From assembly GCA_037447655.1 (NCBI GenBank), contig JBBHKE010001415.1:1-33915 (forward strand): a stretch of 33,915 bases of DNA, written 5' to 3'. Positions 1,334 to 32,531 of this stretch are shown here, piece after piece. This stretch comes from Zygnema cylindricum. Taxonomy: Eukaryota > Streptophyta > Zygnematophyceae > Zygnematales > Zygnemataceae. Positions within the stretch are counted from its first letter, which is position 1. Each line of letters opens with the position of its first letter. The position numbers were made by a program, and so were the translations under genes. The notes under the pieces are model-generated. The model did not search any database, was not told the DNA's origin, and was given only the letters and a program-made list of their open reading frames with translations.

Positions 1334-2535
1334 ATTAGGTTCCCAAAGAAGAACAATACTCTCTTGGATGTAGAGGAGTAGTGGGGAATATCCTTCCTCC
1401 GATGATACTTTCCGGCGCTGGTACTTCCTCTTTGGGAGGAGGATCCACACCTATCAGAGCAGCACCTCCTTCCGGAAGAGGACACGGTTCTGCTCCCGAG
1501 GAAGAGGATACAGGAGTCATCTCCCCGGCTGATTTTGTCAGTCCCACCGGGCCTTCTTTGTCACACTTCACAAATTCTGTAGAGGAAAAAAAGGAAATGG
1601 GGGACATCGGGATCTTTACAGGAGATAGCTCGGGGATTGCATTTTCGTACTTCGAGTTGTTGTGGAAGTCTTTCACGCAATCCGAAATCAATAAGTACAG
1701 GGGAGGAGCCATTTCGGATGACTTCGAGACAACCCTCTTCCCCATGATGGTCAACTACCTTTCTGGAGGGGCGTTGGCAGATTTCAAGGAGCATTAACCT
1801 CTTTTGATGGCTCATAGCATCAAGATCTCGGATCCAACCCTTGATGCAACAGTTCTGCAAGCGGAGGCTGACTTAGTGGCAGCAGCTGCAACCCTTGTAA
1901 CTGCTACCTTCACACAGGACATGAAAGTGCAAGCACAAGGGAGTGCCTATGTTAACCAGCTGCAAGCTATTCAGGCAGCCCAGACACCAACTCGTATGGT
2001 TGCTAATCCTAACCCTTGTACCACTGTGCTAAACATCAGGAGACTCCTCTATACAGAGAGGAACGAGTCAGCAATCAAGGAATTCACGGAATTCCGATGC
2101 TTGAAGAACGAGACTCCCCAAACTCTTTTCCACCGAATTTCAAGCCTTTGTCAGAAAAGGAAACTCTCCACGATTGACCTTCCAGCAATGTTAACTAAAT
2201 ACTTTATCGCTGTCCGTAATTCATTCGGATCAACAGGGGAGAGTGCTCTAGATAACTAGATTGGCGGACTGACAATTCAAGACATCAATCCGTTCGCCAA
2301 CGAAATCTCACTGGTGGCGATGAAATTATATGACTACTTTGTCCACAGTGAGGCACGGGAGAAGGCCGTGACCGGCAAAGCCCGTGCAAATTTTGCAAGA
2401 TTCATAAGCGAGACCTCTTTGAATGAGGAGAAAGAACCTGAACTTAAAGCATTGCGGAAGCTTAAGGGGAAGCAAGTGGCAGACAGCGGGTGAGAACCAG
2501 CGATGGTAGCAAATGAGTGGGTATTTCTCTATAAT

Positions 2536-2577
2536 TGCACAAATTGTCAACAGCCGGGTCATGGGCGGAAGCACTGC
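2536..2577 (+). other. CCHC zinc knuckle 1 of the decayed Gag
   Basis: Frame 1 encodes CTNCQQPGHGRKHC, an exact C-x2-C-x4-H-x4-C retroviral zinc knuckle, flanked by basic residues. Knuckles of this type bind element RNA during packaging. It lies between the stops at 2491 and 2650. Confidence 0.85.
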
Positions 2578-2844
2578 ACAAGAAAACTTAAATTGGAGCA
2601 AGCTTTGAAACTTAAGGAATGGGAGAAAGAACATGCAGAAAGGACCTTGTAACAGCAAGAAAAGCTTAAGGAAGGGAGGGGAGAGTACAAGACACCGATA
2701 ACCAAGGATACATACCGTCCCACTCCACAAAGCGAAACCATTAAGATATCCCAATCTGAGTTGCGGCAAATCAAACTTCCAAAGTTTGATGACGCCCAAA
2801 TCTCCAACAAGATCCAAAGTAAATGTACCACCGAGGGCGCCAAG

Positions 2845-2886
2845 TGAAAAGCTTGTGGATTTCTGGGGCACAAAAAAGGGCAATGT
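2845..2886 (+). other. CCHC zinc knuckle 2, first Cys replaced by a stop
   Basis: Frame 1 reads stop-K-A-C-G-F-L-G-H-K-K-G-Q-C. The last three zinc ligands have the spacing x2-C-x4-H-x4-C, and the TGA at 2845-2847 occupies the place of the first Cys. A Cys codon (TGT or TGC) becomes TGA by one base change. Two knuckles in tandem are common in Gag nucleocapsids. Confidence 0.75.
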
Positions 2887-3447
2887 TTCCGGAAGAATGG
2901 ATTACCCAAGGAAATGATGCAATTTGCTTTGTTTACGGGAGAAGGAGAAACAACCTTTAACTCTATCCCACTCCAACTTATTTATTCATGGGGGCGCCAA
3001 CTTATGCCCACGTTGGAGAGACGTGAGCAAACCGTGGTTACTTTGGCCAGGCTTACGCCGGAGATCATCATACAACAGCAAAGTCAGCAGCTGGTCGCAA
3101 TGGCTGCAGAGTAGGTTGCCCTCCGCTTGGGATCTTCTTCCCCGCCTGCTTCTCTCACAGCAGCACAACCACTCCAAAAGCAGAAACAGGAGTTGTTACA
3201 AAAGCTCGCCGAGCTTGAGCTTCAAGGCACAGCGGGTGCCAACGATGACGACTTATTGGGCTGGGATTTGGAACCCCCAAATGCCCACCATGCCCACACC
3301 TTCCTGTCCGAAGCTTGGAATGTTAGGGTGGGAGACAACCGCCGCCAACTACGCCATTCCACATCGATGCAAAGAGAGGACAGGCAGAAAATGAGTCAAA
3401 GGGATCACAACCGGAAAGCTACAGGGGCCTTTGTCATTTACTCCTAG

Positions 3448-3945
3448 GGCAGTAATGTTGAACAACGGCATCGGCTTAGGAATCAAACCTAATCACCCAC
3501 CATCTCTTCCTCCCAAACCTAAATTGCCTCTCGTTTTCAAAAATTACCAAACGAGACACACCAATGAAAGAAAGAATCACAGGAACGAGAGAAAAATGAC
3601 AATCAAGACTTGTTTGAGAAATATATGGCGGAACGCCTAGAGAATGACACAACCGAAACACCTCCAATCCCTGATTCCGGCTCCGAGAGTGAGATTGAAG
3701 AACAAGATTGGGATATGCAGGAACCGAACACATCCCAATCTTTACCGAAAGCAACACTTCTTTCCTTCAAACCGGCATGCTAGTCATGCTAGTTTGGCTC
3801 CTCATGCCCTATGCCCTCACCCACGTGAAAACTCTAGCATCCTCCCACAACCTGCCCAAAGAAATCCTCATTCAGGCATTAAGAGAGGAGTTCCACACTA
3901 GAAAGGGCGGGGGTAGACAGGACCACTCCGCCAACCGCAGTATTT
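3448..3945 (+). pseudogene. Broken linker between nucleocapsid and protease
   Basis: No frame stays open. Around 3600-3780, frame 1 shows an acidic stretch (SGSESEIEEQDWDM) of the kind found in unstructured linkers, then several stops; frames 2 and 3 are each open for about 80 codons over 3644-3960. The region probably joined Gag to the protease in the intact ancestor. No domain recognised. Confidence 0.35.
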
Positions 3946-4345
3946 TTGTCCACATATCCTAAAACCCCTATAGTGGAAAGGGACTACAAAGCCTTATCAG
4001 TGGCTGTTATACTTAACCGAACCGGGAACTTCAAGCTCAACGGGTACGGGGGATACCAGGACGTTGTGGTCGACACCGGAGCACTCCGCAACCTCATTAC
4101 CACCTCCGCTTTGCAGAAAATGCCCAAGGAACTCCAGCCCAAAATTTGCCCAAGAAACATCTGCTTAAGCACCGTAAGCAGCGGCAGTCAACCAGTCCAT
4201 GGAATAATCAAGGCCATGGAAATCGAGTTTTCTGATGACAGAGGCCAACGCGTGAAAATTGAGCTTCCCTTCTTGGTGATGGAAGGGACTCAATTCGAAA
4301 TTCTGTTGGGAATGGCCACTTGGACCCGGCTCAATATGAGTTTGA
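3946..4345 (+). pseudogene. Retroviral-type aspartic protease remnant
   Basis: The frame 1 product has the active-site motif VVVDTGALRNLIT (about 4060-4100; D-T-G-A) and, about 70 residues later, hydrophobic strands followed by FEILLGMATWTRL, matching the conserved I-L-G segment of pepsin-like retroelement proteases. These enzymes act as dimers and cut the polyprotein. The catalytic Asp is intact. The frame is lost near 4335-4345, where the reading continues in frame 3. It follows the nucleocapsid directly, as in Ty3-type and retroviral genomes. Which LTR class it belongs to is not decided by this fragment alone. Confidence 0.7.
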
Positions 4346-4719
4346 GCGTGTGGAAGAACAATGTACAATCCAGGACCCAAAAAATCCGGAAGGAACCAAA
4401 ATGGTGGTTCCTTTGGATTTATGGAACCGGGGGAAGACAAATGTCCCAGTGTTTGGTTGCTACCCAGTGTACACGACATCATCTGTGACGGAATTGTTGG
4501 GCAGGTCTACAGATATTGCCAAAGAAATCTAGCAATTCCCAATTTCCAAGCGGTGGGAAGAGGAATATAACAATAGATTATTGCAGGTAGCAAAACTCTG
4601 GTGGGGAGTGGATAAAGCATTTTCAGCCTTAACGTTGAAGAAGCTGTTTCTACACCACAATCTAATGCTTCCAAACCCAAGACCTGTAACGACAAGTTCA
4701 ATCGACAAGTGATGTCATT
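4320..4719 (+). pseudogene. Protease to methyltransferase linker
   Basis: Frame 3 is open from the end of the protease (PKNPEGTKMVVPLDLWNRG) through one stop at 4530-4532 and on to about 4690, ending in a Ser/Thr/Pro-rich stretch (VSTPQSNASKP). Around 4690-4712 the reading moves to frame 2 for about 60 bases and then back to frame 3, so two small compensating indels separate it from the methyltransferase motif I. No RT-like motif is present here, which is notable because RT normally follows protease. Confidence 0.4.
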
Positions 4720-5181
4720 GGCAGTCCCCGATTCAGGACTGCGTATTTTATCTCTATTTTTCGGGAATTAGTTATGATTTGGAAGCAGTTTTGCAAACAG
4801 GATATCGGGTGGAGTCATACACAACCGTGGAAATATCACTCGAGGCTCGGGCTGTCAGCAAACATCGCCTCCACCAACTTAAACACCTATATCCTCAACA
4901 ACTTCCAGTATCTGCCTTTTCCAAAGCTCACCGTAGTCTTCCCCACAATGTGGAAAACATCATGGCGACCCACCTGGCCAGTTTGGGAAGAGTGGATTTG
5001 GTGTTGGCAGACTGGCCTTGTCAAGGATACTCCTTAGCAAGACAAGGAAGAGGGCATCAAGACAGTAGAAGTGGAACATTTTTCTGGTTGATCAAATTAA
5101 TCTCGTGGCTTCAACAACTCCAAGACACACCGGTGGGGTACGTTTTGGAAAATGTCCACCCAGGAGACGATAAACATAAAC
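4716..5181 (+). pseudogene. C5 cytosine DNA methyltransferase domain, N-terminal half, truncated
   Basis: C5 methyltransferases transfer a methyl group from AdoMet to cytosine in DNA. Motif I is split by a frameshift: frame 2 gives SGLRILSLF, then frame 3 gives FSGI (4758-4769) followed by YDLEAVLQTGYRVE. Motif II is a Glu in YTTVEIS. Motif IV is DLVLADWPCQGYS with the catalytic Cys codon at 5019-5021, followed by RQGRGHQDSRSGTFF. Motif VI is YVLENV (ENV at 5148-5156). Spacing and order match the family. The target-recognition region and motifs VIII-X are missing because an LTR begins at 5182; the last residues of the open frame (to 5237) come from that LTR. It lies about 400 bases after the protease and in the same direction. 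The catalytic residues that remain are intact, but the copy cannot be functional. Confidence 0.85.
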
Positions 5182-5400
5182 TGTTGAAAATTAATAGATT
5201 TCTAGAGTATTTTCTAGGTTTAAATATGTTAGTATAAAAGGAAAAGAAAAGGAGGGACAGCTTGCCTCCACCTCCTCTCTCTCTAGCCCGCATACTTGGT
5301 GTAGTCACTGGAGGATAGAGAGGGTGGTTGATCCATGGCTGCCTTAGTTCAACAGGAAGTTATTTTTAGTAGGTTACTAAAAAATACCTAACGGGCCCGG

Positions 5401-5478
5401 GATTTGATCCCGTTACGTGCCGTCCGTCACGTTGGCCGATAGCAGTCAGCTTTATCCTATTAGACTATGACCATAGCT
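5401..5478 (-). other. tRNA-like segment in X-plus LTR
   Basis: On the minus strand a perfect A box TAGTCTAATAGG (5467-5456, pattern TRGYNNARYNGG) is followed 58 bases later by a B box GATCAAATC (5409-5401, pattern GWTCRANNC) in a T-arm-like stem with a 7-base loop. It is antisense to the LTR. No convincing acceptor stem, so it is a tRNA-derived segment rather than a tRNA gene. Confidence 0.55.
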
Positions 5479-5737
5479 AAATGGTATTGTATGTGATAAA
5501 TATATATGTATTTAGCAGGGAACAAATTCATCTAACTGAAACTCTATACGGCATGCATAGATACAGTTTTATAAAGTACGAAGTACGAAACTACTTTGAA
5601 ACGGATACCGCGCATTTTGTTTGGATAGCAAAAACAAATATTGCGCAAGTATTTATAACGGCTGAGATTGCATTTCAAGTCAAATCCAACGGTGCACATC
5701 ATTGCCGAAATCCTGAAATGGTCACTTTGGCATTCAG

Positions 5738-5763
5738 TGACGTGGCATGACTAGCGCCACGTG
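5738..5763 (+). promoter_or_regulatory. Paired ACGT-core boxes (G-box) in X-plus LTR
   Basis: TGACGTGGC and GCCACGTGG face each other about 10 bases apart; the second contains the palindrome CACGTG (5758-5763). Both are kept in the two X-minus LTRs (CACGTG at 19291-19296 and 24669-24674), and CACGTG is also in the W LTR (26087-26092). Plant bZIP factors bind such cores. A regulatory role in this LTR is inferred from conservation only. Confidence 0.4.
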
Positions 5764-6326
5764 GAGAGATAACATTCGGTCGCTGGAATTCCGAGGAATG
5801 TACGGACGAGTGGAAAATGGACACGCGTCCGCTTAATGGCCTTGTTGTACAAAGGTCGTACAAAAAGTACTTCGGCAGTAGTACTTTTATGTACTATACA
5901 CTATTCTAATTGGTTGGTACAGTTAATAGATAGGGGTTGTTGTTGTTCCACAACCACCGGTGCAAGTGGAGGAGCAGCAGTAGTAGTAGAAGTAGACATG
6001 ATACACTCTCAGAAGCTATCAAGAATCCTACCAAACAGCTATTCTGAAGTGCTCACCAATTCTTTTACAAGCATCCAAACTTCACAAAACTCTATCAGAA
6101 TATAGAGTAGCATAAACACTAACAACTCCCAAAGTTTCAGTACAATTGACCTAACAACATTCAAGATATAATACTCAGAGGTTTCCCAAAAACTGTGTGC
6201 AGTTTTACTACTTGGAAGTCTGGATACATAATATGTTATGAGTCCTAAGTATTATACTTGTGTTGAATTGGCAATGCCAGTGTACTTGGGAGGTACGTCA
6301 AACCACCAAGCTACCATTAATCTTTC

Positions 6327-6423
6327 AAGCTACCACTAAGCTATCACTAAGCTACCACTAAGCTATCACTAAGCTACCACTGAGTTACCCACTAAGTTAC
6401 CACTGAGTTACCCACTAAGTTTA
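6327..6423 (+). repeat. 11-base tandem array in Y LTR
   Basis: About five units of AAGCTACCACT / AAGCTATCACT in alternation, then related 11-12-base units GAGTTACCCACT / AAGTTACCACT. The same array is at 16827-16920 in the other LTR. No spacers, so not CRISPR. Confidence 0.85.
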
Positions 6424-6546
6424 CTAGAATCGTAGCTATCGTAGTTGCTCTATCTATACAGAATCACATTAGGAATATCAGACGTTGCGTTGTCTGTACG
6501 GACCATATCAAATATAATCGTGGTAACGTTGTCCTGTCTGTGTTGC

Positions 6547-6640
6547 AGCTTCGCTGCTGCGCTGCTCTGCTGCTGCGCTGCTCTGCTGTATAGCAGCTGC
6601 GCTGCTCTGTCTGTATAGTTGCTGCGCTGCTGCGCTACTC
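6547..6640 (+). repeat. GCTGC/GCTCT-rich simple repeat in Y LTR
   Basis: Runs of GCTGCGCTGCTCTGCTGCT interrupted by TATAGCAGCTGC; a counterpart lies at 17046-17146. It can pair with itself (GCAGC/GCTGC). Likely microsatellite expansion inside the LTR. Confidence 0.7.
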
Positions 6641-6822
6641 TGAAAGCTTTCCAAAATACAACATTCCCTAAAGCTTTAGAATCAATATATTAGCGCAGCT
6701 GCGGTGATAAACTAGCGCAGTATCACAGCATATCAATATAGCAATTAGCAAGTCGCTTAGTCCCACTACATCTCAATGGTGGACTTATCGCAGCGTGGCA
6801 GTATAGCAGTGCAGCAATTCAA

Positions 6823-7490
6823 CTATTCACTTAGTCCCACTGCGTCCCTACAATACTTCAGCTTAGGAGCAGGAAGAGCTTTAGTGAGCATATCAGCAAT
6901 CATTTTTGCATCTGGTAAATAGCATAATTTCATCACTCTAGAGAACACTTTTTCTCTTACAAAGTGTAATCGTACATCCATGCGCTTGCTTTTGAAGTGA
7001 TGACTCGGGTTAGAAGCAATGGCAATGGCAGCCTGGTTATCACACCAAATCACCTGTGGACCAACTTACATGTATCCTAGTTCTTGTAACATGGATTTTA
7101 CCCATAAGAGTTCTTTGAGGGCCGAGCTTGCTGCCATAAATTCTGACTCCATTGTCGACTATGCTGTCACCTTTATAAGTTTCTTGCTCCAGCAGCAAGT
7201 ACTGTTCCCAACTTGTAGAACGAATCTCGTGGTGGATTTCCAGTTGACATATCGCCATAGCTTGCATCACTCCACATTTGCAGTTTTACTTCTCCTCCGC
7301 CTAGTGTTAGTTTGAGGTGTTTGGTTCCGGCCAAATATCTTAAGACTTTCCTTGCTGCATCAAAGTCAGATTTTCTCGGATTCTCTAGACTCCTGCTCAG
7401 TACCTCGACTGCTGCAACAATGTCAAGACGGGTACAATTCATGAAATATATTAAGCTTCCCACTATTCGTCTGTAAGGTATTTGTGTCAT
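6823..7490 (-). pseudogene. Y-minus RNase H domain and Pol C-terminus
   Basis: The end of the copia Pol. From 7490 downward, one frame gives the late RT segment YRRIVGSLIYFMNCTRLDI and then WSDASYG, the first RNase H Asp region. A frameshift follows, and from 7053 another frame gives CDNQAAIAIASNP and MDVRLHFVREK, which match the copia RNase H end. It stops at 6823, 160 bases before the 3' LTR. The central RNase H segment (7054-7270) is scrambled. RNase H would remove the RNA strand after reverse transcription. Confidence 0.8.
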
Positions 7491-7538
7491 AGAATCATTC
7501 TCCCTTGATTCTAAATACTCACTAACAATGAGACCTGG

Positions 7539-8391
7539 TTATGTCTCTTCTCCCTCTAACTTTTGCCGAAACTCCATTGTAGTTAGACATCCTTTTGCCC
7601 CCCGCATTCCGTACTCATCTAACATGTTTCCAATAGCCTCCTTTTGAGTCAATTTTATTACTTTCTTACTTCTGTCCCTCTCTACCTGGATACCCAAAAT
7701 ATATTTTGCCTCACCGAGGTCTTTCATCTCGAACCGTGAGTTTAGAGCAGTATTGATTTTGTTGATTTCAGCCATTGTTTTACTAATTAATAATAAATCA
7801 TCTACATACACCGCTATATACACTATCCCATTTTCACATTTCAAAACGTAGACATAGTGATCAGATTTTATCCTGTGAAATCCTAGGCTAGTCAAGAATT
7901 CATCAAGCTTTAGATTCCACAATCTGGGGGGTGTTTTAGGCCGTACAGAGATTTAAGCAACTTGCATACTAAATGCTTTTTTCCTGGTTCTGCATACTTT
8001 TCAGGTTGCTGCATGTGAATGGTCTCTTCTAGTTCTCCATGCAAAAAGGCTGTCTTTACATCCATCTGATGTATTTCCATATCTTCTATAGCAGCTAGGG
8101 ACAGCAAAATCCTAACTGTCGGAAATATTACAACCGGAGAAAATGTTTCTTCAAAATCGATTCATTCCTTTTATTATACCTTTTTGCCACAAGTCTGGCC
8201 TTATAACGTTCAATGGTGTTATCGGGATTTAACTTCACCTTGAATACCCATTTGCTGCCGATTGCTTTTCGATCCGGAGGAAGGTCCACAAGCTCCCATG
8301 TTTGAGCCTCCATGATGGACTTCATTTCGTCGTTTGCTGCCTCGATCCAGTGATTCCGTTCTGGTGATGAGAAGGCCTCCTGAATGGTCAA
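7539..8391 (-). pseudogene. Y-minus reverse transcriptase
   Basis: Three overlapping or adjacent frame pieces cover the copia RT. 8391-8128 has MKSIMEAQTWELVDLPPD and SKWVFKVKLNPDNTIERYKARLVAK. 8107-7910 has MEIHQMDVKTAFLHGEL. 7922-7539 has the catalytic VYVDDLLL and FEMKDLGEAKYILGIQ. The YVDD box is intact, but two frameshifts, near 8125-8160 and 7910-7920, disable it. Confidence 0.85.
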
Positions 8392-9600
8392 AGGCTCCCC
8401 TGAGGCTGCCGAGTAGGCAAAGTGAGAACTTGCTTGCAGGCCACTGCTGGATCTTCTTCCCTCGGAATTCTGAGGCTGAGATCGTCAGATGCCGCTTATT
8501 GCGCTGATTGCGCTGGTTGCGATCTGTGTGGATTGACTGCTGTTGGTCCGTTTGGAACGGAACTTGTTAAGGAACTTGGAGAGAGTCTGACTCCGGAGTC
8601 ACTACAGGAAAATTTGGCATCTGTGGTACAATTTCCTGCAAGCAATCTTAAATGACATATTCATGTACCTTTTACTGCTTTTGGTGCTCTGTCATTTTAA
8701 ATAAATTGACGGTGTCAAGCTCATCCTTTACAATAATATTCCGTGCTACAACTTTTTTGTGCCTCTCAAACACAAAGACTCGATAACCTTTTGAGTGATC
8801 GTCATATCGTAACAAAATACCCGGTAGTCCCTTCGGTTCCATTTTCCATCTATCTGTGGACGTATCGAATATAAAGCATTGACTACCAAAGACTTTGAAA
8901 TGGCTAACATCTGGTTTGCTACCTGTCCAAATCTCGTAAGGAGTAGTGTCTACCGATTAGGATGCTATCCTATTCTTAATATAAACTACACAATTAAAAG
9001 CCTCAGCCCAGAATTTCGGATCCACATTCTTATCTGCGAGCATCGACCTGGAGCTCTCTGTGAGAGTTCTATTTACTCTTTCAGACACCCCATTTTGTTC
9101 TGGTTAATATGGAAGAGTCAATAGAAAACTAATACCTTCTTCGAGTAAAAAGGTTTCAAATTCTTTCGATGTATATTCACCACCATTGTCTGATGTGAGC
9201 TGCAAAATAGGTAAATTATGAAGTTTTTCAACCCATGCTTTATAGTGTTTCAAGTGACCAAACACTTCACTCTTTTCCTTCATAAAGTAAACTTTTGTAA
9301 ACCTGGAAAAATCATCTGTGAAGGTGACCATGTATTTCATCCCCCCTGGCAGATGGAACCTTCGCAGGACCAAAAACATCCGAATGAATTTGTTGAAGAA
9401 GTTTCGTTGACCGATGCTCAGACTCCTTAGGAAATGGCAATCGGTGGATTTTGCCTAAAGCGCAACCATCACAAGTTTTGACCGGCTTATCTGTGAGTGA
9501 TACACCCTCTATTTTTCTAGCAAGGACCATTTTCTTCAAACTATCATAGTTTACATGGCCTAATCTTTTATGCCACAACTCATCTGAGTGCAAGACACCG
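8392..9600 (-). pseudogene. Y-minus integrase
   Basis: The zinc-binding HHCC part is seen as LWHKRLGHVNYD and CDGCALGKIH (about 9575-9450). Core pieces include LTSDNGGEYTSKEFE (second catalytic Asp, about 9200) and, in another frame near 9060-9105, EQNGVSERVNRT, which keeps the catalytic Glu but follows a stop (PY-stop-PEQN). Downstream to 8392, fragments of the integrase C-terminal region and the linker to RT are scattered over frames. Integrase would insert the cDNA; this copy is broken in several places. Confidence 0.75.
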
Positions 9601-10328
9601 GAGTACAAAACATCATTCTCCTTGGTTTTAGCCATATCCATGCGATACATCTTGCTACTATCTCTAGTACCTGTAACCGCAACCTTGCCATTTTTGCTAA
9701 CAACCTGCCGACCATTTTTCAAATTAACCTCAAAGCCTTTACTCTCTACCAACGACGTAGAAAACAGATTTTTCTTAAAGTCATGCACAAATAAGACATT
9801 GTGAAGAGTCCTTTCAATTGCCTTTCCTTCTACATCAACTAGTAATGACACATCACCCATAGCACGAGTTGGGACACTCATTCCACAAGCATAATAAATA
9901 TTATTCTCCGGCGTTGCTTTCAGATTTTTGAAGACGGCCTCGTTCCACCACATGTGGGCTGACGCTCCTGTATCCATAATCCATCCAGGAACTTTCGCGC
10001 CCTCCATTGCTGTCGCCATAGCGAATAGATCCGTGTCGTCCTCGTCAGAAAATGTCAGAGTCGTCCTGGAGTGATGAAAAAGCTGAAAGCAGTGCATTTC
10101 CACGAGGTGTAGGCCTCGTGAAGCTTTTGTAAAACTGACTTTGTTGCCATCCCGGCCTATATAAACCTGTATCGTTAGCTTGTTTAATTTTAGGACAAAA
10201 TTTGTATCCATGACCTCTCTCACTACAATAAAAACATGCATTGTTTGATTGTCTATTTCCACCCTGATTAAACTGTCTGAACTGGGTAAACTGATTACGT
10301 TGCTGATTAAATTGACCTTTCTTCCCAA
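9601..10328 (-). pseudogene. Y-minus aspartic protease region
   Basis: The long open frame 10328-9312 (338 codons) contains GWIMDTGASAHMWW (active-site DTGA near 9980), the strand segment NVLFVHDFKKNLFSTSLVE typical of copia proteases, and then runs directly into the integrase HHCC region. Order and motifs are those of copia Pol. The frame is open here, so this part of Y is less decayed than the rest. Confidence 0.8.
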
Positions 10329-10974
10329 ATTCTGAATTAAAAGCCTCTACTTGCTCAACATTGAGAATATTAGATGTAGCTTCCTCCTCTAGTAAAATAT
10401 TGATGGCTAACTGTAAAGTCCAGCTAGCTTTATCTTTTTGTTTGAGCATGTCAGATGCTCCTTTCATACTACGAGGGAGACCCCTCATGAGCAATGCTGC
10501 CTGTTGAAACTAAGGAAACACCCCACCGGCACAACCATGTGCATCTACAAGGATACGAAATTTGTTAGAATATTCAGCTATTGTACCGCCAGTGTACTTA
10601 TAGTCCCAAATTTTTCCAGCCAATAGAAGCTCTTCCTAAACATTAGCCTTTTCATAATCACTTTTAATGGATTTCCAGATATCAATTGCCTTTTTTATTT
10701 TTATCCGAGACATAGCTAAGTCCTCAGATATACAAAATTTCAAAATAGAATGAGCCTGTGTATTTTTCTTAGACCATGACGGATCAGATTCATCTAGCGA
10801 ACCATCCAATATATCCAAAAGATTGACAGTCTCAAAATGTGTCTCCACCATATCGGCCCAGTAAACATACTTATCCCCGGAAAAGATAGGACTTCTTGAT
10901 GACAAGCCCATAACGTGTTGTTCCACAACCACCAGTGCAGGTGGAGGAGCAGCAGTAGTAGTAGAAGTAGACAT
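10045..10974 (-). pseudogene. Y-minus Gag
   Basis: The ATG at 10974 lies inside the 5' LTR (which ends at 10916), so about 19 codons are LTR-encoded. The first piece (10974-10636) has the UBN2-type Gag pattern, with YVYWADMVETHFE. A frame break between 10636 and 10494 is followed by 10494-10045, with the CCHC knuckle CFYCSERGHGYKFC. Gag would form the particle and bind RNA. An alternative start is the next ATG, in the primer-site area (10908). Confidence 0.75.
10906..10915 (-). other. Y-minus primer binding site, anticodon type
   Basis: On the element strand CGTTATGGGC lies directly after the LTR end. GTTATGGGC is complementary to the anticodon arm of eukaryotic initiator tRNA-Met (GCCCATAAC), as in Drosophila copia, which primes from a half tRNA. 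The match is shorter than in X. Confidence 0.6.
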
Positions 10975-11301
10975 GATACACTCTCAGAAGCTATCAAGAA
11001 TCCTACCAAACAGCTGTTCTTAAGTGCTCACCAATTCTTTTACAAGCATCCAAACCTCACAAAACTCTATCAGAATATAGAGTAGCATAAAAAATGACAA
11101 CTCCCAAAGTTTCAGCACAATTGACCCAACAACAGTCAAGATATAATACTCAAAAGTTTCCCAAAAATTGTCAGCAGTTTTACTACTTAGAAGTCTGGAT
11201 ACATAATATGTTCTGAGTCCTAAGTCTTATACCTGTGTTGAACTGGCAATGCCAGTGTACTTGGGAGGTACGTCAAACAACCAAGCTACCATTAATATGT
11301 C
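10916..11301 (-). repeat. Y-minus 5' LTR, downstream part
   Basis: The 3' half of the Y 5' LTR, ending at 10916 next to the primer site. It matches 5941-6321 closely. The Z element starts at 11302; its target copy ATGTC is at 11297-11301. Confidence 0.85.
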
Positions 11302-11603
11302 TGTTGAGAAGTAATCCTAAGTTAGTTCAGAAGATAGTGCATTAAAGGGAGAGAGCGCAGTGGCGCAATGGAGAAGCACAGTGCAGAAGTGCAAAGTGGA
11401 ATAACTTTCTTGTTAAATGGTTAAAACGAGCACGCGACCAAACGATCTTTATATACAGAGAAAGAGCTTTCGAACGAGCTATAGAGAGCAAGATTTGGAT
11501 ACGTAGATCAAAAGTTACAGGCGTGCAAAGCAGAAGCTTCTAGAAGGTTCCACAGGAAACGGTATGGACTTTTCCGAGGTGGTTCCTAAGTGTTTCCTTG
11601 GAG

Positions 11604-11697
11604 TTTCGGGGACATGTCTAGTTGGTTCTTGTGACGTGGAGAGCCACGAGTTTCGGGAACATGTCTAGTAGGTTCTTGTGACGTGGAGAGCCACGAG
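11604..11697 (+). repeat. 47-base tandem duplication in Z 5' LTR
   Basis: Two adjacent 47-base units (11604-11650 and 11651-11697), each starting TTTCGGG and ending GAGCCACGAG, differ at about two positions. The 3' LTR has one unit at the matching place (from about 16385), which accounts exactly for the 47-base length difference. Confidence 0.9.
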
Positions 11698-11765
11698 AAG
11701 GACACTTGTCAATAAGTTAGAGCTAGAAATGTCTAGAATGTCTAGAAGGGTAGAGTAGAAAAGAG

Positions 11766-11772
11766 TATATAT
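11766..11772 (+). promoter_or_regulatory. Z TATA box candidate
   Basis: TATATAT lies about 290 bases before the first gag ATG and is repeated at the same place in the 3' LTR. Transcription would start roughly 25-35 bases downstream. Motif and placement only. Confidence 0.5.
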
Positions 11773-12062
11773 GAAGTAGGAGAAGTAGACAAATCAATAC
11801 AATTGGAGAATTAGTTGTGACCATAGTTGAAGAGATAGTAAGAGTCCCTATAGTGAGGAAGCATTGTAACTCTCTGTGAGTTGAGATACAAAGATAAGTG
11901 AAGCCTTGTAAAGAGAACTTGGAGATAATAAAGTGATTCTTCTCGGAGAGGAAAATTTGAGAAAGTGTGCTTTTACTTTGTGAGTGAATTCTTTGTGACT
12001 TCGGAAGATTCTTGAGTGACCTGTGAGAGAGTTTTTGCTTTGTGAAGCTAGATTGTTGCAAG

Positions 12063-15000
12063 ATGAGTGAGGCCCACAAAATTCAACATGGTATCGGAGC
12101 AAACGAAGCCATGAAGTTCTCCAAGTTTGTTGGAGCAAATTTCCACAAATGGAAAGCGAAAATTAAGCAAGTGCTCAAGATGAAGAAACTATGGGGACAC
12201 GTTGATGGAACCGACCCGGCACCGGCGGCACAAGATGAGCTTGTGGTGTGGCAAGGAAAGGAGGAAGAGGCCAAAGGTTACATTTTGTTGAGTCTTGACG
12301 ACACTCAAGTATCCCACATTTTAGGATGCGATTCGGCAAAGGGGATGTGGGACACCTTGCTCAAGGTGTATGAAGATAGTGGAACGGCAAATGTGTTGCA
12401 ATTAAAGGAGAAACTTGCCACCTTTAAGATGAAGGAGACGGACTCGATTCAAACGCAAGTGAATCGACTTAAGGAGCTTGCGGAGCAACTAACGGCGGTC
12501 GGAAAGAAACAAGACGAAGAAGACCTCGTGCTTACGTTATTGAGGAGCCTCCCAAGTGAATATAAAATGCTCGTGACGGCGTTAAAATCACAAGAGAAGT
12601 TAAAGTTGGAGTACGTCGTAAGTCGGCTACTACAAGAGGAGCTCGACCTCAAGCATGGAGAAAGTGAGGAGTCGGGAGATTCGGCGCTTTTCACAAAAGG
12701 ACGCAAGAGCACTACTATGAGGAAGTGCTACAATTGCGGCAAAGCGGGTCACATAGCGAAGAATTGCCGACTATCGAAGAAGGCAAATGAGAGGCCGAAG
12801 GGAGGGAGCTCAACGGCATGCTACAATTGCGGAAAGGAGGGTCATCGAGCGTATGAGTGCAAATACAAAAAAAACAACGCGATGACCGTGGAACTTCAAC
12901 AAGCAAATCTCGTGGAGAAGAAGGGAAGTTCAAGTGATTGGATTGTAGACTCGGGAGCAACGCATCATATATGTAGTGAAAAGTCGTTGTTTCTAACTCT
13001 CACTAAATTGGATACACCAAAAAGAATTATTGTTGCTAATAATGAGTCTTTAGAGGTAAATATGGAGGGTGATGTGAGAGTAGATTTACCCACGGGTAGA
13101 GGTATAAACCGAGTCACTTTGAAAAATGTGTTTTATACTCCGCAATTAAAGAAGAATTTATTTAGTGTGATCCATGCCGTGAAGTTTGGACATAAAGTTG
13201 TATTTAAAGAGAACTATAAGTGTGAGATTATTGAAGAGAGCACGAGTAGAGTAAAAGGTGAAGGAATAGCGGAAGGGAATTTATTTAAGTTAAGAGTAAG
13301 GATACCACGAGTGAGAGGGGGATCATTTATTGCCGAGGGAAATTCAAGTGAGTTAAAGTCCTTTAGTTTATGGCATAAAAGGTTTGCGCATTTAGGAGAG
13401 GCCAACTTAAAGAAGTTAATTGAGAAGAAAATGGTGAAGGGGCTTGAAGGAGTTAGTGGAACTCTAACGGGGGTGTGTGACGGTTGTTTGGAGGGGAAAC
13501 AACATAGAGAGCCGTTTAAACGCACGGAGGAGAGAAGAACTCGGGAGAAGCTTGAGCTTGTCCACACGGACATAAGTGGACCGCACCCGAGGAGTCTTGG
13601 AGGGAGTAAATATTTCATCACTTTCACGGACGATTGTACGAGGAAAGTGTGGATTTACTTCATGAGGGAGAAACGGGAAGCTTTCGAGAAGTTTAAGGAG
13701 TTTAAGGCCGAAGCCGAGAAATATTCCGAAAAGAAGGTGAAGGCGCTACGATCCGACAACGGCGGAGAATACACCTCAGGAGCTTTTAAGTCGTTTTGTA
13801 AGAAGGAGGGAATTCGGCAAGAATTTACTACCCCTTATAGCCCGCAACAAAACGGAGTGGCCGAAAGATTAAACCGAACGTTGGTGGAGGGTGCACGAGC
13901 TATGGTCCACTCGGCGGACCTCGACAAGTCATTTTGGGCCGAGGCGATTTATTGCACCGTGCATGTTAAGAATCGGTCACCAAGCGCAAACTTAGAAGAC
14001 GTTACCCCCGAGGAGGCATGGAGTGGCTACAAGCCGAGTGTGCAACACTTGCGAGTGTTCGGATGCAAAGCGAGCGTATTTATTCCTTCACAAAAGCGAA
14101 AGAAGTTTGATAAGAAAAGTTGGACGGGAGTTTTCGTTGGATATGATGCGGCGAGAAAGGCGTATCGCGTTTGGGATACGAAAAAGCAAAAGGTCGTATC
14201 AAGCCGAGATGTTATTGTCCATGAAAAACAAGAGGCTAAAGAGGAGTCATTTGAGGATATGGAAATTAAGGAGCATGAAGAGGAGGTGGAGGTGGAAGAA
14301 GAAGCAAGTCCTTCGAGTTCGACTAGCACTCCACCCGAGACGGATGAGGCAAATTCAACTCCGGAAACAAGCCCGCAGGCACCGAGGAGATCCGGAAGAG
14401 TGAGAACAACACCAAAGAGATTAACCGCTACGAGACTTGGTGGTGTGAATGAGGAATTTGCCGGATTTGCATATTGTTTTCTTACGGAAGAGGAGGAGCC
14501 GCAGAGTTTTCAAGAGGCGATTACGTGTGCCGAAGCACAAAAATGGAGGGCGGCTATGGACGACGAAATGAGGAGTCTCTATGACAATGACACGTGGGAA
14601 CTCGTCCCAAGACCGGAGGGGAAAAATATTGTCGGTTGCAAATGGGTCTACAAAATTAAGAGGAAGGCGGACGGGACCGTGGAGCGTTACAAAGCCCGTT
14701 TAGTCGCGAAGGGATATTCCCAAAAGGAGGGGATTGACTACAATGAAACTTTTGCACCGGTTGTGAAATTTTCAAGCTTAAGGAGTTTGGTCGCGATTGC
14801 CGCATTGGAGGGCATGAAGATGCATCAAATGGACGTGAAGACGGCGTTCCTCAATGGAGAGCTTGACGAGGAAATTTATATGGAGCAACCGGAAGGCATG
14901 GTGAAGAAGGGAGAGGAGGACCTTGTGTGCAAGTTAAAGAAGCCTCTCTATGGTCTTAAACAAGGACCACGGTGTTGGAATCACCGTATCGACGGTGAAA

Positions 15001-16058
15001 TGAAAAAGGAAGGCTTTGAGAGATTTGAGACGGATAGAGCGGTGTATAAGCGTGGAGTAGGAAAATCTCTCACAATTGTGTCTATCTATGTGGATGATGT
15101 GAACATCTTTGGTTATCTCGATGATGAAATTTTGAAAGTTAAAAGGTTTCTCAAAAGTAAGTTTGAAATGAGTGATTTAGGAGAAACTAATTATTTGTTG
15201 GGAATTAAAGTGGATATTGATAAAGAGAAAGGCGAGGTGACCATGCACCAAGAGAAGTACGCGAGAGAAGTCCTCAAGCGATTTAATATGGAGAATTGCA
15301 AGCCGGTGAGCACACCAATGGACACGGGGCTGAAGCTCACGAAAAATATGTGTCCAACGAACGAGGACGAAAGGGAGCAAATGAAGGAAGTACCGTATCG
15401 AGAAGCGGTCGGGAGCTTGATGTATTTGATGGTAGCAACGAGACCGGATTTGGCTGCGGCGGTTGGGAGTGTTTCCCAATTCATGGAGAATCCGGGAATT
15501 ATACATTGGCAAGCCGTGAAAAGAATTTTGCGTTACCTCAAAGGAACGGTGAATTTCGGTTTAAAATTCAAGAGAGGAGAATCCGTAGAATTCACCGGAT
15601 ATGTCGACTCAGATTGGGGAGGCGACGAAGACACACGGCGAAGCACGACCGGATATGTTTTTACATGCGGAGGCGCAGCAATAAGTTGGAGCTCCCGAAG
15701 ACAAAGGACGGTTGCCCTATCGAGCACGGAAGCCGAATATATGGCAGCAACACACGCTACGAAGGAAGCCATATGGTTAAGGGCGTTCTTTAAAGAGGCG
15801 GGATTCGAGCAAGGAACAACGGTGATATACTCGGATAATCAAGGAAGTATTGCTCTCATGAAAAATCCCGTTTATCATGCTCGCACAAAGCATATTGACA
15901 TTCAATTTCATTTTGTTAGAGAATATGTTGAAAGTAAAGAGATAAAATTTGAGTATGTGCATACGAGCATGCAAGCGGCGGATAGTTTGACAAAGGCAAT
16001 CTCAAGAGAGAAAGTAAATTTGTGTAATGAGTTATTTGGACTTGTAAGTCATCATTGA
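12063..16058 (+). CDS. Z Gag-Pol polyprotein (copia)
   Basis: One frame of 1331 codons. With Met at 12063 as residue 1, it shows: UBN2-type Gag (about 20-200); two CCHC knuckles (222-235 and 253-266, CYNCGKAGHIAKNC and CYNCGKEGHRAYEC); protease (DSGA, Asp296); integrase zinc domain (His438 to Cys475) and core D503, D565, E601 with the D-x35-E spacing of integrases; RT with YVDD at 1009-1012; RNase H with Asp1182, Glu1223 and Asp1258. All catalytic residues are in place. The frame is open further up to 12042, but no ATG lies there. ATG 12063 is inside the LTR and reads through the primer site; ATG 12111 (1315 codons), just after the primer site, is the alternative and leaves Gag complete. Single-frame Gag-Pol is normal for plant copia. 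Confidence 0.95.
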   Translation: MSEAHKIQHGIGANEAMKFSKFVGANFHKWKAKIKQVLKMKKLWGHVDGTDPAPAAQDELVVWQGKEEEAKGYILLSLDDTQVSHILGCDSAKGMWDTLLKVYEDSGTANVLQLKEKLATFKMKETDSIQTQVNRLKELAEQLTAVGKKQDEEDLVLTLLRSLPSEYKMLVTALKSQEKLKLEYVVSRLLQEELDLKHGESEESGDSALFTKGRKSTTMRKCYNCGKAGHIAKNCRLSKKANERPKGGSSTACYNCGKEGHRAYECKYKKNNAMTVELQQANLVEKKGSSSDWIVDSGATHHICSEKSLFLTLTKLDTPKRIIVANNESLEVNMEGDVRVDLPTGRGINRVTLKNVFYTPQLKKNLFSVIHAVKFGHKVVFKENYKCEIIEESTSRVKGEGIAEGNLFKLRVRIPRVRGGSFIAEGNSSELKSFSLWHKRFAHLGEANLKKLIEKKMVKGLEGVSGTLTGVCDGCLEGKQHREPFKRTEERRTREKLELVHTDISGPHPRSLGGSKYFITFTDDCTRKVWIYFMREKREAFEKFKEFKAEAEKYSEKKVKALRSDNGGEYTSGAFKSFCKKEGIRQEFTTPYSPQQNGVAERLNRTLVEGARAMVHSADLDKSFWAEAIYCTVHVKNRSPSANLEDVTPEEAWSGYKPSVQHLRVFGCKASVFIPSQKRKKFDKKSWTGVFVGYDAARKAYRVWDTKKQKVVSSRDVIVHEKQEAKEESFEDMEIKEHEEEVEVEEEASPSSSTSTPPETDEANSTPETSPQAPRRSGRVRTTPKRLTATRLGGVNEEFAGFAYCFLTEEEEPQSFQEAITCAEAQKWRAAMDDEMRSLYDNDTWELVPRPEGKNIVGCKWVYKIKRKADGTVERYKARLVAKGYSQKEGIDYNETFAPVVKFSSLRSLVAIAALEGMKMHQMDVKTAFLNGELDEEIYMEQPEGMVKKGEEDLVCKLKKPLYGLKQGPRCWNHRIDGEMKKEGFERFETDRAVYKRGVGKSLTIVSIYVDDVNIFGYLDDEILKVKRFLKSKFEMSDLGETNYLLGIKVDIDKEKGEVTMHQEKYAREVLKRFNMENCKPVSTPMDTGLKLTKNMCPTNEDEREQMKEVPYREAVGSLMYLMVATRPDLAAAVGSVSQFMENPGIIHWQAVKRILRYLKGTVNFGLKFKRGESVEFTGYVDSDWGGDEDTRRSTTGYVFTCGGAAISWSSRRQRTVALSSTEAEYMAATHATKEAIWLRAFFKEAGFEQGTTVIYSDNQGSIALMKNPVYHARTKHIDIQFHFVREYVESKEIKFEYVHTSMQAADSLTKAISREKVNLCNELFGLVSHH
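12089..12100 (+). other. Z primer binding site
   Basis: TGGTATCGGAGC directly follows the LTR. It differs at one base from TGGTATCAGAGC, the usual plant copia site complementary to the 3' end of initiator tRNA-Met. Confidence 0.9.
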
Positions 16059-16072
16059 ACTAACTAATGATT

Positions 16073-16081
16073 AAGAGGGGG
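16073..16081 (+). other. Z polypurine tract
   Basis: AAGAGGGGG immediately before the 3' LTR at 16082, 15 bases after the gag-pol stop; the expected plus-strand primer. Confidence 0.85.
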
Positions 16082-16821
16082 TGTTGAGAAAGTAATCCTA
16101 AGTTAGTTCAGAAGATAGTGCATTAAAGGGAGAGAGCGCAGTGGCGCAATGGAGAAGCACAGTGCAGAAGTGCAAAGTGGAATAACTTTCTTGTTAAATG
16201 GTTAAATCGAGCACGCGACCAGACGATCTTTATCTACAGAGAAAGAGCTTTCGAACGAGCTTAGAGAGCAAGATTTGGATACGTAGATCAAAGGTTACAG
16301 GCGTGCAAAGCAGACGCTTCTAGAAGGTTCCACAGGAAACGGTATGGACTTTTCCGAGGTGGTTCCTAAGTGTTTCCTTGGAGTTTCGGGGACATGTCTA
16401 GTAGGTTATTGTGACGTGGAGAGCCACGAGAAGGACACTTGTCAATAAGTTAGAGCTAGAAATGTCTAGAATGTGTAGAAGGGTAGAGTAGAAAAGAGTA
16501 TATATGAAGTAGGAGAAGTACACAAATCAATACAATTGGAGAATTGGTTGTGACCATAGTTGAAGAGATAGTAAGAGTCCCTATTATGAGAAAGCATTGT
16601 AACTCTGTGTGAGTTGAGATACAAAGATAAGTGAAGCCTTGTAAAGAGAACTTGGAGATAATAAAGTGATTCTTCTCGGAGAGGAAAATTTGAGCAAGTG
16701 TGCTTTTACTTTGTGAGTGAATTCTTTGTGACTTCGGAAGATTCCTGAGTGACCTGTGAGAGAGTTTTTGCTTTGTGAAGCTAGATTGTTGCAAGATGAG
16801 TGAGGCCCACAAAATTCAACA
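16082..16821 (+). repeat. Z 3' LTR
   Basis: 740 bases, the same ends as the 5' LTR, a single copy of the 47-base unit, TATATAT at 16499-16505. Followed by the target copy ATGTC. Confidence 0.95.
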
Positions 16822-16826
16822 ATGTC

Positions 16827-17171
16827 AAGCTACCACTAAGCTATCACTAAGCTACCACTGAGCTATCACTAAGCTACCACTGAGTTACCCACTAAGTTAC
16901 CACTGAGTTACCCACTAAGTTTACTAGAATTGTATCTATCGCAGTTGCTCTATCTATACAGAATCACATTAAGAATATGAGACGCTGCGTTGTCCGTACG
17001 GACCATATCAAATATAATCGTGGTTGTGTTGTCTTGTCTGTGTTGCAGCTTCGCTGCTGCGCTGCTCTGCTGCTGCCCTACTGCGCTGCTCTACTGTATA
17101 GCAGCTGCGCTGCTCTGTCTGTATAGTTGTTGCGCTGCTGCGCTACTCTGAAAGCTTTCCAAAATACAACA
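16827..17171 (-). repeat. Y-minus 5' LTR, upstream part
   Basis: On the element strand this begins at 17171 with TGTTGTATTTTGG and runs to the Z insertion. It includes the GCTGC-rich stretch and the 11-base array, and matches 6327-6663. It is flanked at 17172-17176 by the target copy GTTGT. Confidence 0.85.
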
Positions 17172-17457
17172 GTTGTGAGAGGGAGCTAGGACTTAGAAAA
17201 ATCTGGTAGATGGTCTTTTCTCTCTTTGAGAGGTTGTATAAATTGACATTTTTGCCTGCTTATAACTTATCGCCTAGTTAGGCGTTTTCAGAGATTCTTT
17301 TTCTTATGGACTCAAAGGAGTCTAAGTTGCATAGGGGTGCAGTCATATTGTTTGCTTGTCTGCTAGGGTAGCACTGGTTGCTATTGAAAGTGGGTTAGTT
17401 AATAGCTATCTAGAGGCTTGCTGTACTTTGTATTCCAATGGAGGACACAGAGGTTCA
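17172..17457 (+). repeat. X-plus 5' LTR, second part
   Basis: Continues the LTR broken at 5940: GAGAGGGAGCTAGGACTTAG aligns with the X-minus LTRs and with W at about 26265. It ends GAGGTTCA at 17457, directly before the primer site. It carries the gag ATG at 17438. Confidence 0.85.
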
Positions 17458-17578
17458 GGTTATGGGCCCACCCTCTAGGAAGCCTACCTTCAATGGATCT
17501 GGGTTCATATATTGGGAAGCCATGATGATGGGAGCTTTGTTAGAAAAACGATACTGGGTATCGTCAGTGGACAAGTGA
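17438..17578 (+). pseudogene. X-plus Gag start, truncated
   Basis: 46 codons from an ATG that lies 20 bases inside the LTR, ending at TGA 17576. The peptide (VQVMGPPSRKPTF, then FIYWEAMMMGALLEKRYW) matches the X-minus Gag start at 24231. Shortly after KRYW the sequence leaves Gag: a 19-base direct repeat follows and then protease sequence. Capsid and nucleocapsid are deleted. Confidence 0.75.
17458..17470 (+). other. X-plus primer binding site, anticodon type
   Basis: GGTTATGGGCCCA touches the LTR end and is fully complementary to the anticodon arm of eukaryotic initiator tRNA-Met (TGGGCCCATAACC). The same 13 bases are found in X-minus (24199-24211). This is the half-tRNA priming arrangement known from Drosophila copia. 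Confidence 0.8.
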
Positions 17579-17599
17579 AACGCCAGTGGACAAGTGAAA
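17562..17599 (+). repeat. 19-base tandem duplication at Gag/protease junction
   Basis: CGTCAGTGGACAAGTGAAA followed at once by CGCCAGTGGACAAGTGAAA (18 of 19 identical). It sits exactly where X-type Gag ends and Y-like protease sequence begins. Confidence 0.9.
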
Positions 17600-18836
17600 A
17601 TTTTATTTTAGTGATGAGACCTTTGTTGAGTCGAAAGCAAAGGAAAGGGTGTCACTTATGTTGAATATAGAGGGAAAACCTGTGAAAAGGGTTTTAGAAG
17701 ATGTGTTGCATGTCCCAACTTTTAAAAGAAACTTTTTTTCTACGTTAGTGGCAGAAAAGAAAGGTTTTAAAATTATATTTGAGAATGGGAAAAAAAAAGT
17801 GAGTAAGAATAGAAAAATAGCTGCAGTGGGATTTGCTGGTGGAAACATTTTTTATCGATTGAGTCTTGCAAATGATAATGAAAATGATGTTATGTACTCA
17901 ACTGTAATCAGTGATTGTGATTTATGGCATAAACGTTTAGGACATGTGAATTATGATAGATTAGAAAAGATGGTAAATCAAAAAATAGTGGAAGGTGTAA
18001 AAACTAGTCAAAAACCAGCATCAAATGTATGTGATGGTTGTGCAATGGGAAAAATCCATAAGTTGCCTTTCCCTTCTCAAACTGATCATAGAAGTAGCAG
18101 GGTGCTAGAACTAATTTATTCAGATGTATGGGTGCCATCTAGATACCCATGTGTGGGAGGGGTTAAGTTTATGCTTAATTTTACGGATGATTATAGTAGG
18201 TTTACTACAGTTTATTTTTTAAAAAGTAAGGATGAAGTTTTTGCAAAATTTAAGGAGTATAAGGCTTGGGTTGAAAATTTGTATGAGAGAAAGATAGCAG
18301 GGTTCAGATCTGATAATGGAGGGGAGTACATTTCTAATGAGTTTGGAGAATTCTTAAAATTGCATGGAATCTCACGTCAGCTTACTGTTCCTTATTCCCC
18401 GGAACAAAATGGTCTTTCAAAGAGGATGAATAGGACAATATTAGAGTGTGCTAGGACAATGATGGCTCATATGGACATAGATTACAAGTTTTGGGTTGAG
18501 GCTATGAATGGTGCAGCTTATGTGAGAAACAGGTTAGAAACAAGGGCAGTAAAAGATAAAACTTCCTATTAAATGTGGACTAGACACAAACAAGATGAAA
18601 GTCACTTCAAGGTTTTTTAGAAGTAAAGTTTTTATCTTAGATAATGATCCGCAGAAATAGAAGCTAGAACCAAAAGGTATACCAGGGCTATTTCTAGGGT
18701 ATGATGATCATGCCAAAGGTTATAAAGTGTATGACACTAAGAGAAATATAGTTGTGGTAGCCAGAAACATTATTGTGAAGGATGAAGGAAAAGAAGTAGA
18801 GGTATTTAATAAGCGTATAGATGAGAAGAAGGATAG
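17600..18836 (+). pseudogene. X-plus protease end and integrase
   Basis: An open frame 17649-18572 (307 codons). It starts after the protease active site is lost, with EDVLHVPTFKRNFFST (end of protease). Then come the integrase HHCC (LWHKRLGHVNYD, CDGCAMGKIH), IYSDVWVP (first Asp), FRSDNGGEYIS (second Asp) and EQNGLSKRMNRT, where the catalytic Glu is Lys (GAG to AAG type change). A stop at 18570 and a frame change are followed by the integrase tail (GLFLGYDDHAKGYKVYD) to 18836, where X-minus begins. Sequence is closer to Y-minus than to X-minus integrase. Confidence 0.85.
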
Positions 18837-19871
18837 TGCAATTATGTGTCCTCCATTAGACCACAGAATAAAAGAAGCCTCTAGATAGTATTTAACTAAC
18901 CCACTTCAAGCCAGAACCACTGCTGTCCAGGAAGGCAAAATGACAGTTTGACTGCACCCTGCTGCCTAGACTCCCGTGAGTCCGTAGCAAAAAAAATCAC
19001 TTAAAACGGCCAACCAGCCGATGAGTTATGAGGCAGATAAAATGCCAATTTGTACAAACTCTCAAAGGGAGAGGTGACTACCTACCAAAATTTTCTAAGT
19101 CCTAATTCCCTCTAATAACTTCTATCTACTGAAGTACGGACCAATCAAATTACTGTACCGTACCAAAAAGTACTACTGCCGGTGTACCTTTTGTACGGCC
19201 TAAATACGACAAGGCTATTAAGTGAACGCGTGTATGCTTTTCACTTGTCCGTACATTCTTCAAAATTCCTATGACCGAATGTCATCTCTCCACGTGGCTC
19301 TAGGTCATGCCACGTCACAAAACGCCAAAGTGACAACTCCGGGATTGCGGCAATGATGTGCACCCTTGGAATCGCAGCGAGACGCTATCTTAGCCGTTAT
19401 AAATACTTGCGCGATATATGTTTCGCTGTCAAAACAAAATGCGTGGTATTCGTTTTGAAAAAGTGTCGTACTTCGTACTTTCATAAAACTATATCTATGC
19501 AAGCCGTATACAGTTTTAGTTAAATGAATGTGTTCCTCCTTTTAGATATATATATCTATCACATACTATACCATTTAGCTATGGTCATGGTCTAATAAGA
19601 TAAAGCTGACCGCTATCGGCCAACTTGATGAACCGAAGGTACCGCGATCAAATCCCAGGTCCGTCAGGTATATTTTTAGTAACCTACTAAAAATAACTTC
19701 CTATTTGAACTAAGGCAGCCATAGATCAACCTCCCTCTCTATCCTTCAGTGACTACAACAAGTATGGGGGCTAGAGAGAGGAGGTGGAGGCAGACTATCC
19801 ATCCTTTTTCTTTTCTTTTATACTAACCTATTAAACCTAGAAAATACTCTAGAAATCTATTATTTTTAACA
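18837..19871 (-). repeat. X-minus 3' LTR
   Basis: Aligns end to end with 24212-25249. On the element strand it begins TGTTAAAAATAATAG and ends TAATTGCA, including the gag-start ATG near 18856. It contains the tRNA-like segment and the G-box pair. Divergence from the 5' LTR is clearly higher than in Z. Confidence 0.85.
19588..19654 (+). other. tRNA-like segment in X-minus 3' LTR
   Basis: A box TGGTCTAATAAG (one mismatch to TRGYNNARYNGG) at 19588-19599 and B box GATCAAATC at 19646-19654, 58 bases apart as in the other copies. Between them lies the hairpin GACCG-CTAT-CGGCC. Antisense to the LTR. Confidence 0.5.
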
Positions 19872-19886
19872 CTCCTCTTATTTTTT
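19872..19886 (-). other. X-minus polypurine tract
   Basis: On the element strand AAAAAATAAGAGGAG lies directly before the LTR start TGTT. It overlaps the Pol stop codon (TAA, 19887-19885). Confidence 0.7.
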
Positions 19887-20322: not shown

Positions 20323-20417
20323 AGATGCATCCCCCTAACTGGCATCACTCCAAGTGGTGATATCAGTGTGCTCCCCTCCCAAATGCAACTATAATTCTCT
20401 GCTTCCAACCAGATATC

Positions 20418-21452: not shown

Positions 21453-21704
21453 TTTCTCTGAGAAAGACTAAGGCTCATTTGGGTGAGATAGCTTAGTTAC
21501 CTTATGAGCCGTTTGTTTTTCCTGTATCCTTTGGCTGCTCCTCCTTCCTCCCTCAAACTCTGAAGCTGGAATGGATAGAAGTTTTGGATTTCTTCTCACT
21601 GTCTCATCGGCTCCTTTGTCCATGGAAGCCGGTTCTTGTCTTGCTTCTTCTATGTCCTCGAAGTCTATAGGAGTATGTGAGGTTTCCAGTGAGTCTCCAG
21701 TACC

Positions 21705-22994: not shown

Positions 22995-23009
22995 TCTCCC
23001 ATCCCCATA

Positions 23010-25816: not shown

Positions 25817-25838
25817 TAGGGTTTGGTAATTCTAGGAA

Positions 25839-32520: not shown

Positions 32521-32531
32521 TTTTGTTCAGA

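Follow-up and report, generated by a model that had tools for sequence, protein, structure and literature searches.

A C5 cytosine methyltransferase fragment downstream of a retropepsin-like domain in a putative, decayed LTR-type retroelement

Does the cytosine methyltransferase fragment at this locus belong to the retroelement-like sequence that precedes it, or did the two come together by accident? The window, that is, the whole stretch of 33,915 bases analysed here, contains no N and is mostly repeat DNA in which Copia LTR retrotransposons dominate; it is therefore eukaryotic, and the Copia content hints at a green alga or plant as host. The part under study ends at position 5181 and carries, in this order and on one strand, a Gag-like region, a retropepsin-like domain, a linker and the N-terminal half of a C5 cytosine methyltransferase:

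1339..3114, plus strand, decayed Gag-like region (frame 1; stops at 1795, 2257, 2491, 2650, 2845 and 3112)
2536..2577, plus strand, CCHC zinc knuckle CTNCQQPGHGRKHC (pattern C-X2-C-X4-H-X4-C)
2845..2886, plus strand, second knuckle-like stretch, broken by a stop codon (frame 1 translation)
3883..4488, plus strand, retropepsin-like aspartic protease ORF (frame 1; domain at about 4060-4314)
4350..4736, plus strand, linker between protease and methyltransferase (frame 3, interrupted by stop codons at 4530 and at 4710; no Pfam match)
4743..5181, plus strand, C5 cytosine methyltransferase, N-terminal half with motifs I-VI (frame 3; zero internal stops)

The enzyme is the best-defined member of this series. 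The motifs named in the original prediction, I (FSG, 4758-4766), II (E, 4830-4832), IV (PCQ, 5016-5024) and VI (ENV, 5148-5156), numbered by the usual C5 methyltransferase scheme, were all located in frame 3, and motifs I, IV and VI stand in the order that defines a C5 methyltransferase. The fragment matches PF00145 above the Pfam cut-off (2.5e-6, 27.6 bits against a cut-off of 22), TIGR00675 at 7.4e-9, yet below that model's own cut-off, and four PHROG methyltransferase families (best 4.1e-9). Aligned with five phage C5 methyltransferases, it shares 19 invariant columns, including the F and G of FSG, E, P-C-Q, R-S, F-F and E-N-V. A tblastn search against phages returned matches in 102 of 50,697 records at E 0.01 (best 6e-9, 28%). 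A profile made from the five phage enzymes only, run on six frames of the entire window, has its sole significant place at 4755-5186 (50.1 bits, 8.2e-17), and the next and last place listed has a value of 1.9. Judged by these sequence comparisons, the match lies well beyond chance. The nearest sequence matches found are C5 methyltransferases of phages, among them Psychrobacillus phage Perkons, and of bacteria (28-32% identity over motifs I-VI for the best, with PCQ); unlike the fragment in the window, they have no retroelement context, and phage records annotate them as separate genes.

Only half of the enzyme is present because it is cut at 5181. Motifs VII-X and the target recognition domain were not found in six frames of the whole window, and the profile covers model positions 6-133 only. 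The fragment stops at 5181 because a Copia LTR begins at 5182, where TGTTGAAAAT (TGTTG) opens the 5′ LTR of X, as this Copia element is called here. Position 5181 is an insertion breakpoint: the X LTR (5182-5941 plus 17172-17449) is 80-84% identical, in inverted orientation, to the two LTRs of another Copia element (C, below) at 18837-19871 and 24212-25249, its first part being 82-84% identical, and the match begins exactly at 5182. The sequence that follows is a nest of Copia elements:

5182..5940, plus strand, first part of the 5′ LTR of X (resumes at about 17172-17449)
5941..17171, minus strand, Copia element A, inside the X LTR (its own LTR pair 95.0% identical, with GTTGT as target duplication)
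11302..16821, plus strand, Copia element B, inside an LTR of A (nearly intact; ORF 12027-16058, 1343 aa)
17172..18836, plus strand, rest of the 5′ LTR and interior of X (integrase-like ORF 17598-18572, recognised by eye from the translation)
18837..25249, minus strand, Copia element C, taken as lying inside X (LTRs 90.7% identical)
25250..26415, plus strand, presumably the rest of X (disrupted RT piece at 25437-25799 and, at 25852-26415, a decayed stretch resembling an LTR, 65%)

A natural end of the methyltransferase at 5181, or a run-on to 5237, was considered and rejected, as the ORF that reaches 5237 enters the Copia LTR by 56 bases. A continuation of the methyltransferase beyond X is unsupported, the six-frame profile finding nothing there, in a half of the enzyme that is poorly conserved and at a degraded right end of X. 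On its right side, X showed no matching end and no target duplication; decay of what is presumed to be this end of X kept both that duplication and the far side of the methyltransferase break from being found.

The Gag-like region upstream is decayed. Across 1339-2900, stops are fewest in frame 1 (5), which also has the best, though negative, codon score of the six frames. The Gag placed here by the original prediction found no match among Pfam families on 1339-3111, and its position and the knuckle are what suggest a Gag identity. Of the zinc knuckles claimed alongside it, one is intact, at 2536-2577, whereas a stop codon breaks the second, near 2845. The intact knuckle is the only occurrence of the CCHC pattern in six frames of 1-5181, and the pattern occurs at least once in 5 of 500 first-order Markov random sequences modelled on that stretch; the Pfam zf-CCHC match at the knuckle (0.13) is below its cut-off.

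The DTGA of the predicted protease lies at 4072-4083 in frame 1, on the same strand as the methyltransferase, and an ILLG stretch occurs in the same ORF, but the frame is not that of the methyltransferase, and of the three related retropepsin families that the ORF matches in Pfam none reaches its curated cut-off (Asp_protease_2, 1.6e-4, 22.8 bits against 24.3; gag-asp_proteas, 0.0015; RVP_2, 0.089). A PDB sequence search with the ORF listed no protease among its matches, and a single-sequence structure model was uninformative (pLDDT 34). The order within frame 1 is a CCHC knuckle and then a retropepsin-like ORF, with the protease below cut-off and the Gag without a family match.

Linker and methyltransferase share frame 3, and that frame reaches back into the last part of the protease ORF: from 4263 to 5180 it has 2 stops in 306 codons (4530 and 4710). 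Among 2000 first-order Markov random versions of 4350-5181, only 3 contained, in any of the six frames, as few as 2 stops or fewer. Frame 3 also has the highest codon score of the six frames both in the linker and in the methyltransferase, although every frame scores below zero, so that the values rank the frames but do not alone show coding; within the linker only, one reverse frame has 1 stop versus 2 in frame 3. No repeats of at least 20 bases, which could mark a later junction, occur between protease and methyltransferase, and the stretch 1752-5181 showed no repeat boundary. The common strand, the mostly open linker and the lack of a junction repeat favour one retroelement polyprotein, and we consider it likely that Gag, protease, linker and methyltransferase were parts of a single polyprotein of an LTR-type retroelement that is now old and inactive.

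The competing account is chance juxtaposition, in which a decayed Gag-protease element came to lie beside a host or bacterial-type methyltransferase gene, in retrocopied or fragmentary form, and the two were joined by an insertion or deletion. It would accommodate the different frames of protease and methyltransferase, the repeat-rich nest of insertions that makes up the window and the fact that the order protease-linker-methyltransferase is seen in one copy. It appears improbable against the nearly open run of the methyltransferase frame back to 4263, into the end of the protease ORF, the leading codon score of that frame on both sides of the linker-enzyme boundary and the lack of a repeat boundary between protease and methyltransferase; methyltransferases within the Pol of LTR elements are, moreover, already published (PMC5890265).

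On the single-polyprotein reading, the change from protease frame 1 to methyltransferase frame 3, which falls somewhere within 4263-4488, may be either a programmed frameshift or a decay indel, which look alike in one copy. With protease and methyltransferase in separate frames and stops in the Gag-like region, this copy is dead. A run of six A occurs at 4379-4384, in the stretch over which the reading frame passes from that of the protease to that of the methyltransferase.

The placement of the methyltransferase inside an LTR retroelement, the core of the original prediction, is supported in part: the enzyme does follow a retropepsin-like domain across a mostly open linker, but no LTR, RT or integrase of such an element is visible. 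No repeat pair within the window flanks the Gag-protease-methyltransferase element as its own LTRs, no Pfam RT or integrase was detected in 1-5181 (four frames, three plus and one minus), and five primer-binding-site patterns are absent from the same stretch; the three plus frames of 25250-33915 hold Copia RT pieces only. Absence of LTRs, RT and integrase is not proof, because the element is cut at 5181 and perhaps also by the left end of the window. We infer LTR retroelement status from a stretch with neither LTR nor RT in view. The original polyprotein would have read Gag, protease, linker and C5 cytosine methyltransferase, and RT, RNase H and integrase presumably came next. A Copia element would then have landed in the methyltransferase region directly after motif VI; further insertions, together with decay, would have removed the recognisable remainder from the window.

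Methyltransferase-bearing retrotransposons have precedent, as originally claimed: one report (de Mendoza et al. 2018, PMC5890265) describes them in Gypsy elements of Klebsormidium nitens and in DIRS and LINE elements of Symbiodinium. In K. nitens, Dnmt3 lies inside the Pol ORF of LTR Gypsy elements, and the Dnmt3-related enzyme has conserved key residues and is under purifying selection (Ka/Ks <0.2). As described there, KnitGypsy-Dnmt3 and the window copy share a C5 methyltransferase adjoining the Pol part of a retroelement, with retroelement domains on the same strand, and the fragment in the window resembles it further in having no visible introns; the window copy differs in being broken, in its PCQ motif IV and in having no RT or LTR in view. 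SymbioDIRS-Dnmt3 and SymbioLINE-Dnmt likewise encode a cytosine methyltransferase in a retrotransposon (PMC5890265). SymbioDIRS has a tyrosine recombinase and SymbioLINE carries its DNMT in the first ORF, and the Gag-like and retropepsin-like layout upstream in the window fits neither as described. For streptophytes and dinoflagellates, a 2025 DNMT survey (PMC12344493) mentions DNMT3 carried by LTR Copia and DIRS elements; by description, a methyltransferase within an LTR element is what they have in common with the element proposed here. Unlike the Copia elements described there, those in the window carry no recognisable methyltransferase, the phage-only profile having one significant place. 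By titles and abstract openings, no further LTR elements with a methyltransferase were recognised in the open-licence literature.

Because green algae and dinoflagellates have already yielded reports of similar elements, the element is probably a further example and not a new kind. Its best reading is as a putative relic like the Gypsy-Dnmt3 of Klebsormidium (PMC5890265). Actual membership of that published streptophyte lineage, in another host and with no new architecture, seems evenly poised: the kind of element is the same, protease-bearing and with a methyltransferase in the Pol position, and a fold search places DNMT3 nearest, while RT is absent from the window copy.

Motif IV raises a different origin, in which an LTR element, apart from the published Dnmt3 captures, took up between its protease and RT a Dcm-like methyltransferase with PCQ, of the type found in bacteria or phages. 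Motif IV is PCQ in the window versus PCN in DNMT3A, 3B and 3C, and PCQ occurs in all five aligned phage enzymes. However, the phage relative L001, which has PCQ, scores higher with DNMT3B (106 bits) than with HaeIII (57) or HhaI (46); PCQ is thus compatible with membership of the Dnmt3 group. A profile of the window fragment and the five phage enzymes scores DNMT3 at 152, HaeIII at 108 and HhaI at 106 bits, and phmmer against PDB ranks DNMT3 first, weakly (0.005). An AlphaFold2 model of the fragment is of moderate quality (pLDDT 64, from 21 sequences, 20 of them viral relatives), and a fold search with it places DNMT3A/3B first at E 1.2e-3, with no match at E <=0.001, a ranking that the viral relatives behind the model may pull toward DNMT3.

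Phylogenetic placement was attempted with 89 loci, DNMT3A, DNMT3B and the window fragment, reduced to 22 sequences by dropping any with at least 60% identity over 100 residues to one already kept; both DNMT3s were always kept, and loci with a minus-strand best match were left out. The first tree (22 sequences) put the window fragment outside the DNMT3-plus-phage group with an ultrafast bootstrap of 98, in favour of an independent capture, a value not trusted because L087 and L088 lacked the N-terminal part and the window branch is long. Placement tests on the 115 columns of the window fragment, with 20 sequences (minus L087 and L088) and with 22, accepted both positions: with the DNMT3-plus-phage group (AU p 0.46 and 0.38, respectively) and with the Dcm-like group (0.64 and 0.54). 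On these columns the trees appear to fit a Dnmt3-like and a Dcm-like origin alike, without separating them. With both placements accepted, DNMT3 leading the phmmer and fold searches and L001 pairing PCQ with a nearer DNMT3B, an independent capture is unlikely; were it true, de novo methylation of an element's own cDNA would be a recurrent strategy of LTR elements.

The earlier report (PMC5890265) shows de novo CG methylation by retrotransposon DNMTs, offers cDNA methylation before integration and a stealth role as a proposal or speculation, and finds no DNA methylation by a SymbioLINE DNMT in yeast; its authors regard the role as unclear. A live copy of the present element would set its methyltransferase free, or retain it in the particle together with RT, and the enzyme would act on the element's own cDNA before integration, probably at CG. 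By this analogy an intact copy would methylate its own cDNA. The window copy is not expected to methylate because of the stops in its Gag-like part and linker, the frame change and the truncated enzyme. Intact copies with a methyltransferase between protease and RT, if they exist, would be a further natural case of retrotransposons bearing their usual silencing mark, and would offer a way to test whether element-encoded methylation aids cDNA survival or insertion-site choice. The gain from the present copy is modest, as it is dead and truncated and its kind is already in print.

Scans of viral contigs with the methyltransferase and the protease, and of prokaryote genomes with the methyltransferase, yielded no close relative. 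With the methyltransferase of the window as query, 15 pattern matches in IMG/VR and 113 in prokaryote genomes gave 0 confirmed each, and the protease of the window gave 7 pattern matches in IMG/VR, none of them confirmed. When the query was the alignment of phage enzymes, IMG/VR returned at least 600 pattern matches, of which at least 352 were confirmed (best 2e-12 within the candidates listed), and the best 80 of these at least 352 confirmed loci were kept. PCQ occurs in 90 of 90 tblastn alignments from 85 loci, a circular count, since 80 of the loci were picked by a pattern requiring PCQ. Three IMG/VR searches with patterns placing W before the PCQ of motif IV found 0, 19 and 6 stretches; for these 25 loci one tblastn match was listed (L094, 45 bits), no better than the phages. 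Rfam gave 0 matches in its search, and 66 of 72,556 plasmids match the methyltransferase (best E among those listed, 1e-5).

Within the nest to the right of the breakpoint, no matching target duplication flanks element C. The LTRs of element B are 97.8% identical leaving gaps out, or 91.8% in the gapped BLAST match, with a target duplication of ATGTC; its 1343-aa ORF has Gag, integrase and RT domains, and its insertion is probably recent. Across the four-Copia nest (5182-26415), LTR identity is 90.7% in C, 95.0% in A and 97.8% in B. The CpG observed/expected ratio stands at 1.03 for B and at 0.31-0.63 for the measured stretches of A, X and C, a pattern as expected if the older Copia copies were methylated and decayed. 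Further right, a long low-complexity stretch with purine/pyrimidine bias (28644-29590) is open in several frames on both strands, and the ORFs within it look mechanical. Short tandem-like repeats, 74-77% identical, occupy 32238-32514.
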